A DNA stretch of 64,000 nt from Desulfuromonadales bacterium (GTDB lineage: Bacteria; Desulfobacterota; Desulfuromonadia; Desulfuromonadales; BM103). Positions 17,230-61,473 of this stretch are shown one piece after another (position 1 is the first letter of the stretch; each line of letters starts with the position of its first letter). The notes beneath the pieces were generated by a model. The model had not been told where the DNA came from. It made no database searches and saw nothing but the letters and a program-made list of their open reading frames with translations. The position numbers were made by a program, and so were the translations under genes. The stretch covers positions 1-64,000 of the forward strand of contig JAQYVZ010000011.1 in assembly GCA_030145205.1 (NCBI GenBank). Reading direction: 5' to 3'.

Positions 17230-17477
17230 TTCTGAAAGCGTTGAAGAGGAGTAGTAGGGTCCCTCAAGCGTTCCAGAGAGCCGGTGGTTGCTGCAAACCG
17301 GTACGCTGAAACCTGAACTCGCCTCCGAGCTGTGGACGTGAACGGGCCTCTGGCCTGAGTAATTTCCACCGTGATCCTGCGAAAATGGAAACAATGAGGG
17401 CTCCGATCCATGGGGCCAAAACAGGGTGGTACCGCGAAGCGTAAGCTCTCGCCCCTGACCGGGGCGGGAGCTTTTTT
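17230..17477 (+). promoter_or_regulatory. T-box riboswitch, leucine (CUC specifier)
   Basis: tRNA-sensing leader that controls leuA by transcription attenuation. Seen directly: an AGTA element near 17250, the distal stem I block AGAGAGCCGGTGGTTGCTG at 17275-17293, a specifier loop containing GAA-CTC-GCC (17315-17323) and the T-box proper AGGGTGGTACCGCG at 17423-17436. The UGGU bulge in the last pairs with the ACCA 3' end of an uncharged tRNA. A strong terminator follows. CUC is read by tRNA-Leu(GAG), which is encoded at 63.3 kb in this window with A as discriminator base. leuA T-boxes are known in delta-proteobacteria. Confidence 0.93.
17445..17477 (+). terminator. T-box terminator
   Basis: GCTCTCGCCCC pairs with GGGGCGGGAGC (one G-U) around TGACC, followed by six T. 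Uncharged tRNA-Leu should stabilise the alternative antiterminator formed with the T-box sequence. Confidence 0.92.
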
Positions 17478-28427: not shown

Positions 28428-28922
28428 ATGATTCATCGGATTGGTGTCCTGTCGGATACGCACCTGGCTGCGACCGGAGATGCGCTGGCTTTTTTGGCAG
28501 ACCTGGATGAAGGGGCGTTTGCAGGCGTGGAGATGATTTTGCACGCTGGGGATGTGGTCGAAGCGGATGTTCTCCAGGCGTTTACCCGCTGCCCGGTGTT
28601 GGCGGTGCGTGGCAATATGGATCCTGTTACGCCTAGCCTCCCGGGAAAGCGCGTGATAGAGGTCGGTAATGCCCGAATCGGTCTGATGCATGGCTGGGGT
28701 GCTTCCTATGATCTGGAAGACAGGTTGCTGAAAGAGTTCCATGGTGCCGATCTGGATGTTCTGATCTACGGTCACAGCCACCGACCGGTCTGCTATCAAC
28801 GCAACGGCATCCTGCTGTTCAATCCGGGCAGTGCCACCGACCGACGTAACATGCCGTACCACAGCGTCGGCATTCTTGAAATAGGTGCTGAAATTAATGG
28901 GAGTATTATTCGACTGGATTGA
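28428..28922 (+). CDS. YfcE/MJ0936-type metallophosphoesterase
   Basis: 164-residue calcineurin-like phosphoesterase, normal for the small YfcE family. Metal-ligand motifs run in order: D-T-H near residue 10, GD (HAGDVVE), GNMD, and the C-terminal GHSHRP followed by NPGSATDRR. Members hydrolyse phosphodiesters such as bis-pNPP; the physiological substrate is unknown. I choose the ATG with GGGAG eight bases upstream; an ATG five codons earlier is less likely. Confidence 0.9.
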   Translation: MIHRIGVLSDTHLAATGDALAFLADLDEGAFAGVEMILHAGDVVEADVLQAFTRCPVLAVRGNMDPVTPSLPGKRVIEVGNARIGLMHGWGASYDLEDRLLKEFHGADLDVLIYGHSHRPVCYQRNGILLFNPGSATDRRNMPYHSVGILEIGAEINGSIIRLD

Positions 28923-29238
28923 TGAGAGAGGCATTAAAAGTCATTATCTGCCGCGGATAAAATCTGATATTTAAGTCATAATCAGAGAATTATGGCCGCT
29001 GATGTACGCTGATTTTCGCTGATAAATCAAAAGCTGAAAATCAGGTTTTCGAATTCAAAGTCTTTTAACAAAAAAACAGGATTGTTGTTGTTGACTTAGA
29101 TTTTATCCGCGAAAATCAGCGTGCATCAGCGGCTAAAAAAGATTTTGACTTTGACTAACCATCAGATTTGATCAGATTGTATCTGCGGCTAAACAAACTT
29201 AAGTTTTGCTTTTGACATTGTTCATTTGAGGTGGATTT
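28923..29238. repeat. Composite repeat region before the HIT gene
   Basis: No gene. A complete palindromic element occupies the centre (28995-29133), and both flanks carry degenerate pieces of the same sequence: CGCGGATAAAATCT with nearby AAGTCA on the left (28952-28977), and a Gly-less, non-coding ATCTGCGGCTAA on the right (29181-29192). This suggests repeated insertion or decay of one repeat family at this site. Confidence 0.6.
28995..29133. repeat. Palindromic dispersed element, copy 1
   Basis: 139 bp with terminal inverted repeats of about 34 bp: the left arm begins GCCGCTGATG and reads into CGCTGATTTTCGC, and the right arm ends GCATCAGCGGC. The centre contains AAGTCTTTTAACA and TTGACTTAGATTT, which also occur in the second copy at 60690-60826. 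No transposase. It looks like a non-autonomous (MITE- or REP-type) element. Confidence 0.85.
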
Positions 29239-29727
29239 ATGAAAAGACTTTGGGCTCCCTGGCGGATGGAATATTTGCGGTCGATCGGTGCAGACGAGTG
29301 TGTTTTCTGTCTCGGTGATGACCCGGCAGAGGATCGGTCACGGCTGGTGCTGTTTCGTGGCGAGCACAGTTTTATCATCATGAATCGATACCCTTATTCG
29401 AACGGTCACCTCATGGTGGCACCCTACCGACATCTGGCCGATCCGGCTGGATTGGCGCCGGAAGAGGCGCTGGAAATGCACCGGCTAACCATTGCCTGCC
29501 AGACGACGCTACGTTCCTGTTGCGGCGCCCAGGGGTTCAATCTCGGCATGAATATCGGCGAAGCGGCCGGGGCCGGCATTGCTGAACATATTCATCAGCA
29601 CATTGTGCCACGTTGGTGCGGTGACACTAACTTTATGCCGATCTTCGCGGATGTGCGGGTCATTCCCGAGCACCTTGACGAAACCTGGCAGCAACTCAGC
29701 GAGTGCTTTGCACGGTTTTCGTTGTAA
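29239..29727 (+). CDS. HIT-family nucleotide hydrolase/transferase
   Basis: 162-residue protein of the histidine-triad superfamily, in the group annotated as Ap4A phosphorylase-like HIT proteins. The triad H117-x-H119-x-H121 lies in EHIHQHIVPRW, with the nucleotide-binding NMNIGEAAGAGI just before it. C21 and C24 plus a His near residue 65 could bind zinc, as in Fhit-like relatives. The cytoplasmic substrate is unproven. An ATG after TTGAGGTGG is the clear start. No partner gene is adjacent. Confidence 0.9.
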   Translation: MKRLWAPWRMEYLRSIGADECVFCLGDDPAEDRSRLVLFRGEHSFIIMNRYPYSNGHLMVAPYRHLADPAGLAPEEALEMHRLTIACQTTLRSCCGAQGFNLGMNIGEAAGAGIAEHIHQHIVPRWCGDTNFMPIFADVRVIPEHLDETWQQLSECFARFSL

Positions 29728-59945: not shown

Positions 59946-60416
59946 ATGTCTCAGACCATTTTGCGAGTGAAGAAACTGCGGGAAAATGCTATTCTCCCCA
60001 ACTACATGACGGAGCATGCTGCCGGGATGGACCTGCATGCGGCCCTTGAAGAGTCGCTGACGGTGGCTCCTGGCCAGCGGCTGCTGGTGCCGACCGGTCT
60101 GGCACTGGAGATCCCGCCCGGCTTCGAAGGGCAGATCCGGCCACGCTCGGGATTGGCCTTGAAAAAGGGGCTCTCCCTGCCGAACTCGCCCGGCACTATT
60201 GACGCAGATTACCGTGGCGAAGTTGGTATTATTGTCATTAATCACGGTTTGGAACCGGTTGTCTTCGAGCCGGGTGATCGCATCGCCCAGCTGGTAATTG
60301 CCCCGGTTGAACGGGTTACCTTGCTGGAGGTGGTTGATCTGGAAGAGACTCTGCGCGACAGCGGTGGTTTTGGCCATACCGGTTTTGGAAGAGGGAACCA
60401 TGCATCAGAGCGTTGA
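59946..60416 (+). CDS. dut: dUTP diphosphatase
   Basis: Trimeric dUTPase that keeps uracil out of DNA and supplies dUMP. 156 residues with all five motifs: [19 protein letters not shown], the [13 protein letters not shown] catalytic block, GDRIAQLV and the C-terminal [12 protein letters not shown] arm. Its end overlaps the next gene by 17 bp. Confidence 0.96.
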
Positions 60417-60672
60417 TCCGGATCTGTTGCTCGATTTCCCGTGCGATTACGTGTTCAAAGCATTCGGATCGGCCGATGAGGCTTTTGCGGAGGCGGTCAA
60501 GCAGGCTGTCGGCCGAGTGGTTTCGGTCGCAGCCGACGCCATGAAGTCACGGACCAGCTCCGGTGGTCGTTACCAGTCCATCAGCGTGTGCGTTCGCCTG
60601 CACAACAGTGATCAGCTCAAACAGGTCTACGCTGAGCTAAAAAAGATTGAAGGGTTGAAGTACCTTTTGTAA
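60400..60672 (+). CDS. DUF493 / YbeD-family protein
   Basis: 90-residue ferredoxin-like-fold protein. [14 protein letters not shown] opens it, [11 protein letters not shown] lies in the middle and the [18 protein letters not shown] helix ends it, which is the DUF493 pattern. Some E. coli-type members (YbeD) are linked to lipoate metabolism, but function is not established here. The ATG lies within dut behind AAGAGGG. Confidence 0.85.
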
Positions 60673-60689
60673 AATCAAAAACTTGATTA

Positions 60690-60826
60690 GCCGCTGATGC
60701 ACGCTGATTTTCGCCGATAAATCAAAGCATAAAAGCAAGAATTTGGGTTTTAAGTCTTTACAACAAAAATAAGGCATATCGTTTTTGACTTAGATTTATC
60801 TGCGCACATCGGCGTGCATCAGCGGC
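60690..60826. repeat. Palindromic dispersed element, copy 2
   Basis: 137 bp with the same terminal inverted repeats and central motifs as copy 1 at 28995-29133. Fills nearly the whole gap between the DUF493 gene and the Sua5/YciO gene. No coding capacity. Confidence 0.85.
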
Positions 60827-60864
60827 CAAATGATTTGAAGATTTTTCTTTTATTCAGGTGACCT

Positions 60865-61473
60865 ATGATCCTCCAAATTAATCCAGAAAATCCCCAGCCT
60901 CGCCTGATCTCACGGGTTGTCAGTGAGCTCAAGCAGGGTGCCTTGATCGCTTACCCGACCGACACCATCTACGGCCTTGGCTGCGACATCTTCAACAAAC
61001 GCGGCGTCAAGAACATCTACCAGATCAAACAGCGCGATCCACGTCAGCCATTCTCGTTTATCTGCGCCGATTTGTCCGATGTCGCCAATTATGCTCAGGT
61101 CAGCAACTTTGCCTTCAAGATCATGAAGCGGCATCTACCTGGTCCATACACCTTTGTCCTGGAGGCGACCCGCGTTGTTCCGGATAACCTGACGACCCGC
61201 CAGAAGACCGTCGGTATCCGTATCCCGCAAGATGAAATCGCCCTGGCGATCGTGCGTGAGCTCGGGCATCCCCTGGTGACAACCAGCGCCAACGAGTCGG
61301 GCAATGAACCGTTGCATGATCCGCAGGAGATCGATCAGGTTATGGGGCGGATGCTCGACCTGGTTGTCGATGGCGGCAATCGGCTCGGCGATCCGTCGAC
61401 GATCATCAGCCTGATCGACGATCGGGTTGAGGTGCTACGCGAAGGCAGCGGGGATATTTCGTGGATCGATTGA
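60865..61473 (+). CDS. Sua5/YciO/YrdC-family protein
   Basis: 202-residue L-threonylcarbamoyladenylate synthase-type domain. The KxR...SxN nucleotide-binding set can be seen as Y-P-T-D-T-I-Y-G-L-G, K-Q-R-D-P, then TTSANESGNE near residue 140. It resembles the YciO subgroup, whose members may have a different or weaker activity than TsaC. If it is the only such gene, it would provide the first step of t6A formation, with TsaB from 10.3 kb acting later. Confidence 0.88.
   Translation: MILQINPENPQPRLISRVVSELKQGALIAYPTDTIYGLGCDIFNKRGVKNIYQIKQRDPRQPFSFICADLSDVANYAQVSNFAFKIMKRHLPGPYTFVLEATRVVPDNLTTRQKTVGIRIPQDEIALAIVRELGHPLVTTSANESGNEPLHDPQEIDQVMGRMLDLVVDGGNRLGDPSTIISLIDDRVEVLREGSGDISWID

Follow-up and report, generated by a model that had tools for sequence, protein, structure and literature searches.

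Short intergenic palindromes of a Desulfuromonadales bacterium as probable gene-less members of an insertion-element class that carries GxxExxY

How did two related palindromes come to lie between protein genes of a Desulfuromonadales bacterium, and what could have moved them? The window, which is the whole 64,000-nucleotide stretch analysed here, corresponds to contig C83 of a 3.72-Mb assembly in 317 contigs; among named loci, the best matches to its tsaC gene are from Desulfuromonadales. The two palindromes described in a first-pass annotation were present at 28995–29133 (copy 1) and 60690–60826 (copy 2), neither with an assigned strand; both are intergenic, are 80% identical to each other in a DNA search and share the internal block TTGACTTAGA-TTTAT, as had been claimed. 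Terminal inverted repeats were also found, but not at the proposed length of about 34 bp: with mismatches allowed, the arms cover 37 nt at 89% in copy 1 (28990–29026 and 29102–29138) and 64 nt at 75% in copy 2 (60671–60734 and 60782–60845), where the weaker pairing reaches out to about 60671–60845. The left arm of copy 1 consists of GCCGCTGATGTACGCTGATTTTCGC, a mismatched T and GATAAATC, and its right arm is the near-complement. Compared with dinucleotide shuffles, copies 1 and 2 folded with z values of -9.57 and -8.36 as RNA and -10.25 and -8.23 as DNA, respectively. According to our own ORF caller, both lie between co-directional genes, all on the forward strand. Copy 1 separates a metallophosphoesterase (Metallophos_2, 28428–28922) from a HIT-domain protein (29239–29727), two genes that adjoin in the 18 relatives examined, and copy 2 separates a DUF493 protein (60400–60672) from a TsaC-like protein of the Sua5/YciO/YrdC family (60865–61473). 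Copy 1 is moreover nested, which the first-pass annotation had not seen: a different, outer palindrome encloses it, with arms at 28950–28968 (forward strand) and 29171–29189 (reverse strand) that form an inverted repeat at 89%. Elsewhere in the window, a T-box leader (RF00230, 117.8 bits) was found at 17232–17459.

The family is not confined to the two window sites. A 21-base arm pattern with at most three mismatches gave 31 half-sites genome-wide (16 forward, 15 reverse), one of which, on C124, looks unrelated, and its reversed control gave none. Using a DNA search with copy 1, the arm pattern and ORF calls, we listed 18 element positions (six each on C51 and C169, two each on C83 and C126, one each on C280 and C72) with spans of 87–159 bp. 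The same ORF caller puts co-directional genes on either side of 16 of the 18; of the other two, one has convergent and one has divergent neighbours. On C51, where five copies stand in five successive gaps of a rmlD-rmlA-rmlC-EVE-AsmA-rubrerythrin run, five copies fall within 5.4 kb, which was matched by 0 of 20,000 random placements over the genome, the sole null used. Among the matches listed in the arm-pattern search, this genome was the richest in copies within the order. Since the copies are 70–80% alike, none of them is a recent jump. Nesting recurs as well: outer arms of the type GCCGCGATCARAATCTAT surround the inner element on C51, C72 and C169, were matched on C126 by the left outer arm alone, surround another palindrome on C99, and stand alone on C281 as a 108-bp palindrome.

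Several further observations were made on the same genome. In the copy at C169:43191-43340 (L012), about 23 bp of inserted sequence with TGCCTTGAGGCA interrupt the left arm, and the rmlD stop codon lies inside the arm of an inserted element (C51:111926-111933). Two more palindrome families, of the CCCTCACCCCAACCCTCTCC and AACGCTGAGTCGCAGAGGCACAGAG types, are present at L132:7899-8065, L132:14854-15010, L136:9916-10102, L136:13884-13942 and L136:2120-2232. RmlB (L132:15030-16148, equal to C51:113029-114147) contains the in-frame insert KSSPSPQPSSFRPCGSARGEGVL, which looks like a translated copy of a CCCTCACCC...GGGTGAGGG repeat.

Comparison with relatives suggests that both window copies were inserted. 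The gap between the phosphoesterase and HIT genes measures 316 bp here, compared with 61 bp in G001, a genome of the same genus, and at most 76 bp for 12 of the 18 relatives; among the longer gaps, that of L251 holds an unrelated strong palindrome (z -8.51). In the same gap of L249 and L258, CACAGAG-like and AAAGAAC-like stretches folded no better than shuffles (z -1.40 and -0.87), so they were set aside as look-alikes. Upstream of tsaC, the site of copy 2, no comparable inverted repeat was found within 300 bp in relatives (best score 10, window 23) in the 25 of 56 fetched tsaC loci that were compared. The C51 sites behave likewise: the rmlA-rmlC gap measures 204 bp here, whereas 8 of 9 relatives have -4 to 30 bp, and the rmlD-rmlA gap measures 178 bp here, with at most 103 bp in 9 of 10 relatives. 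G001 had no match to either arm pattern, and its intergenic sequence is too different to define an empty site; no shared direct repeat that would mark a target-site duplication was seen at the ends of the copies in our genome. The exception at both rml gaps is L198, with 213 and 521 bp, and its rmlD-rmlA gap contains a palindrome together with a GxxExxY gene.

A GxxExxY gene between such arms was first spotted in the long gaps of L206 and L198. GxxExxY is the NCBIfam name of a family (TIGR04256/PF13366) of the PD-(D/E)XK nuclease superfamily, whose record gives no function. In the order, phased-unit inverted repeats bracketed GxxExxY genes in 90 of 98 testable loci versus 1 of 25 housekeeping controls. 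In the first set, the best flank-flank inverted repeat score was at least 11 in 23 of 24 GxxExxY loci and in 1 of 25 RmlA/phosphoesterase controls, and shifted positions in the GxxExxY loci reached 11 in 8 of 96; among further loci, 67 of 74 reached it versus 8 of 222 shuffles. These loci comprise the best HMM matches and 80 hand-picked among the matches listed, rather than a random draw. Of the 110 fetched, 12 were dropped as truncated (6 of 30 in the first set, along with 5 of 30 S23 loci, and 6 of 80 in the second); six of them had earlier been scored with misplaced windows, and one of the six reached 11. The arm units are spaced by 8–10 bp, with a lag identity of 0.34–0.40 versus 0.23–0.27 at other lags. 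In 39 of 73 loci, one flank of the gene also contained a complete palindrome, so that adjacent gene-less elements may be the source of some of the flanking arms. At one end, the GxxExxY reading frames of L391, L350 and L392 extend into an arm, so that they encode PQISQIGAD or PQITQMDADY-like tails. Genes of another family, S23 (23S_rRNA_IVP, PF05635), were examined outside rRNA (L295-L324), and inverted repeats with 7–8 bp units enclosed the gene at 22 of the 25 loci that could be tested.

One GxxExxY subfamily has arms like those of the window family on either side of its gene, a gene that was not found in our genome. Across 73 of 95 loci, arm similarity followed protein identity (Mantel r 0.488, 0 of 2000 permutations), rising from 0.29 at less than 40% protein identity to 0.79 at more than 70%. 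The window-type double unit occurred on both sides in 6 of the 95 GxxExxY loci with at most two mismatches and in 12 with at most three (the set counts G026:C130 twice, as L272 and L400), versus 0 of 25 controls, 0 of 25 S23 loci and 1 of 96 shifted positions. The six loci are L293 itself and five whose proteins are 61–74% identical to it, sharing an AYxxxxTEQ/SEQ-type N-terminus; 16 proteins from other subfamilies are 33–52% identical to L293. Moreover, the window arms outscored every control and S23 flank in 13–24 of the 95 loci. They match the GxxExxY type of arm and not the S23 type. The arms of our copies consist of about three phased short units with an outer end of the TT(R)GCC/ACC type, as in the GxxExxY-bearing class. 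In G075, a gene-less 126-bp element adjoins a gene-bearing 464-bp element, and their right ends are identical at 42 of 49 positions. Among the matches listed, G022, G075 and G095 have an element and a GxxExxY gene no more than about 100 bp apart. Arms resembling other families of our genome flank GxxExxY genes as well, namely GGACGCTGATAAAATCTGAT at L376 and, at L361 in genome G014, arms that resemble the stretch 29157–29193, which includes the outer right arm of copy 1.

Based on these comparisons, the window elements probably belong to an insertion-element class whose full versions carry GxxExxY; they would be its MITE-like, gene-less form, with the nuclease as the putative mover. The earlier proposal of a MITE-like, non-autonomous element without a transposase gene agrees with what was found: the elements are short and multicopy, have terminal inverted repeats and no coding capacity, and occupy sites that are empty in relatives by gap length. 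A related autonomous element in the same genome, another feature of MITEs, was not found. MITEs, ERIC and RUP are similarly short, non-autonomous, intergenic and bounded by inverted repeats (PMC2229807), and differ in that the partner gene here is no known transposase. Similar repeats had also been suggested to occur in other bacteria, and this was borne out: CGCNGATNNNCGCNGATNNNCGC was present in 40 of 136 genomes of the order (reversed pattern 0), and, with GCC in front, 21 of 394 genomes across the phylum had it (reversed pattern 1). A dense cluster at G022:C7:142000-159500 (L206) surrounds capsule-type genes, and its 17.5 kb hold 27 right-arm matches, or 33 with one more mismatch allowed. 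No window element was found on plasmids or phages by blastn at E <= 0.01.

PF13366 was detected in 82 of 134 genomes of the order. It occurred in 31 of 40 element-bearing genomes versus 51 of 96 others (Fisher P 0.006), a test that joins two genome draws of the order differing by two genomes (136 and 134), and in 13 of 14 element-rich genomes. The strongest fact against the nuclease as mover is that GxxExxY is absent from our own genome: neither PF13366 nor PF05635 was matched in a profile search at E <= 0.001. PF13366 was also absent from G001, and gene-bearing relatives of the window element were found in other genomes only. Under the mover model, the gene would have been lost from our genome, or the assembly is incomplete; with no nuclease detectable, the copies are probably stranded.

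This absence bears on the strongest rival, in which the palindromes and GxxExxY form one class, with a host or element factor as the mover and the nuclease, perhaps one that serves in defence or as a toxin, as a passenger. The co-occurrence of arms and gene leaves room for it, and the nuclease could be such a passenger. The gene-less copies are abundant in a genome that lacks the gene, and S23 genes, which encode a four-helix bundle, lie between comparable phased repeats (22/25), so that two unrelated genes share one architecture. Weak profile matches to the candidate defence families PDC-M36A (E 0.0005–0.012) and to Cas4 models (E 0.001–0.02) point the same way. Against a passenger, the arm sequence follows the nuclease subfamily, which indicates cognate recognition or tight co-inheritance, although co-inheritance alone would also suffice. 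We judge the passenger rather unlikely, and infer movement by the nuclease from its co-inheritance with the arms together with the arm specificity.

In 27 aligned GxxExxY proteins, G27, G29, E32, Y35, D71, E81, K83, Q95, Y99, N112, F113 and R122 are kept, and the fixed residues form an E..D..ExK..QxxxY pattern. The likeness of the family to RecB/Cas4 nucleases is weakly backed, by the Cas4 models (E 0.001–0.02) and by a Pfam Cas4 match (E 0.031) below the cut-off. A profile search of the PDB gave two unconvincing matches, with E values of 0.039 and 1.4. As a phage gene, GxxExxY was rejected when one protein gave no match to a phage collection, and four single-protein scans, which are sensitive to close relatives only, found none in viral contigs. 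In open-licence literature, no paper on the repeat words or on a link between GxxExxY and repeats was found, and one paper mentioning GxxExxY only names a neighbouring gene (PMC8934634).

Among known systems, REP/REPIN sequences with their RAYT transposases are alike in being intergenic, multicopy and palindromic without a gene of their own, and on this view the window elements would have been moved in trans by a Y1 transposase (RAYT or TIRYT). REP stems of E. coli have conserved mismatches that are needed by TnpA-REP (PMC8266576), and a conserved stem mismatch, as in group 2 REPs with their mismatch or bulge, was found here at position 26 in 14 of 14 intact copies. Y1_Tnp is also common in the order (116/134 genomes). 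The window family differs, however, in its length of 87–159 bp, its 10-bp phased units and the absence of an associated Y1 transposase; inspection by eye of the flanks of 15 of our copies revealed neither GTAG nor CGTC as a tag common to the hairpins. A REP-type transposase with matching ends, which the first-pass annotation had proposed to search for, did not emerge. The sole Y1_Tnp of our genome (L131:1462-2094, equal to C124:7365-7697) is flanked by GGGACACTTAAAAACAAGTGTCCC, and because its bordering GGGACACTT repeats differ from the window arms, a RAYT/REPIN origin was rejected. In nine genomes compared by eye (G015, G026, G027, G060, G075, G084, G087, G101 and G102), Y1 and element matches shared no contig among the matches listed. 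Movement by a Y1 transposase is thus very improbable. The Y1 gene of our genome resembles a TIRtron, and the GGGGACAC-type repeat beside it agrees with GGGGWSAS, the consensus of TIRtrons, with which the window element does not agree. TIRtrons contain a gene between inverted repeats and carry Y1 transposases, and CGTC-tagged REPs are reported as a palindromic family without an associated transposase (PMC3733652).

Two other groups invite comparison. Geobacter and Pelobacter multicopy nucleotide sequences are palindromic intergenic families of related bacteria with no mover reported (PMC2700814, PMC2996986, PMC3543383), and in G. bemidjiensis multiple sequences are given for 31% of the intergenic regions concerned; they were compared with the window family by their description. 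The 23S rRNA intervening sequences with an S23 ORF have one small ORF between terminal inverted repeats and are called selfish (PMC4990558). S23 genes in the order likewise lie between phased inverted repeats, while the window elements stand between protein genes, have no ORF and belong to a genome without PF05635.

The anatomy of the arms bears on how such elements would be recognised, and on whether they are functional RNAs. Each arm consists of three CGCNGAT units at 10-bp spacing, and the flanks of 15 of our copies read TTRGCCGC...GCGGCYAA. We analysed the 14 copies with both arms intact, which are related and thus not independent events, leaving out C51:110723, C169:43191, C72:6497 and C126:1336, in each of which one arm is interrupted, short of a unit or absent. 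At the variable base of unit 1 (position 6), the arms matched in 12 of 14 copies (4.3 expected on re-pairing; 0/20,000), and at that of unit 2 (position 16) in 10 of 14 (5.4 expected, P 0.006). At that of unit 3 (position 26), they matched in 0 of 14 (4.0 expected, P 0.007), and the interrupted copy C169:43191 also has T against G there by eye. Considering that the outer arms covary and that position 26 is never matched, the pattern suggests that the elements act as hairpins, folded so that the third unit keeps a constant mismatch. Like E. coli REP, the Coxiella 23S rRNA intervening sequence is reported to have a fixed mismatch. In other genomes, the heptamers are kept and the spacer bases of the two arms are often unlike, so pairing of the spacers is no general rule.

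A cis-acting hairpin kept by selection, such as an mRNA stabiliser, processing site or terminator whose spread is secondary, would agree with the strong folding, with the covariation at positions 6 and 16 and with the 16 of 18 copies between co-directional genes. However, the hairpin is missing at the same gaps in relatives, and no Rfam family reached the gathering threshold for the element, the sub-threshold matches being chance-like miRNA models. The excess of G-U that would point to selection at the RNA level was not found among the mismatches of 13 oriented copies (7 G-U, 5 A-C, 26 other). By eye, no T-run follows the stem in our copies, where the right arm continues with YAA, unlike an intrinsic terminator. 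A functional RNA therefore hardly seems credible. Least probable of all is that hairpin-templated mutation (quasipalindrome correction), rather than selection or a recombinase, keeps the arms alike; it would fit the better match within than across copies at positions 6 and 16, but should erase the mismatch at position 26 in the same stem (0/14, about 4 expected, P 0.007) and leaves the spread unexplained.

For the preferred reading, a GxxExxY-carrying class with gene-less members, we propose the following course. The class would have terminal inverted repeats at its boundaries, each built of about three short units with the core C-R-C-N-R-A-K (here CGCNGAT) at 8–10 bp spacing, and its full versions would carry GxxExxY as their single gene. 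The nuclease would recognise its cognate arms, which at that stage would probably be single-stranded or extruded as a hairpin, in keeping with paired outer arms and a mismatched third unit, and would cause insertion or copying at gene-gene junctions, with the gene-less copies being moved in trans. In mRNA, RNase III should cut the long stem, and if so, insertion inside operons would be tolerable. Such processing of the window elements is suggested by analogy, as tolerance through RNase III is reported for 23S rRNA intervening sequences.

GxxExxY elements also occur outside the order. The L293 protein had matches in 8 of 72,556 plasmid records, and the arms beat 200 shuffles in three of the eight loci (Bacteroides, Bernardetia and Sphingomonas); those in Treponema were marginal (5 of 200 shuffles), and the remaining four loci had no arms by the same test. 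The element of Sphingomonas parapaucimobilis separates fabD from fabG. In S. paeninsulae, these genes are neighbours without an element, separated by about 35 bp, which is close to the sum of the sequence outside the repeats in the filled site. On a plasmid of Fusobacteria bacterium ZRK30 (L405), a GxxExxY gene has, by eye, a direct rather than inverted flanking repeat ending in AATCCGTGTACC.

Many genomes of environmental bacteria are full of short intergenic palindromes without a known mover. We tentatively extend the reading to them, with appreciably less confidence than for the window elements: GxxExxY proteins may be the mobility enzymes of an element class unrelated to DDE, HUH/Y1, tyrosine or serine recombinases, in which a small RecB/Cas4-like PD-(D/E)XK nuclease would act on hairpins of its own phased-unit arms and place element copies at gene-gene junctions of operons, RNase III would cut the copies from the message, the CGCNGAT, CACAGAG, CACGAAG and CAGGAT palindromes would be gene-less progeny, and S23 elements, including the 23S rRNA intervening sequences, would be a parallel branch. 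The finding would thereby give the unexplained intergenic repeats of bacteria a candidate mover that is open to test, and PF13366/TIGR04256, an annotated family without a function, a hypothesis for one. It also suggests that the 23S rRNA intervening sequences may be one case of a wider, operon-tolerated insertion of hairpins.
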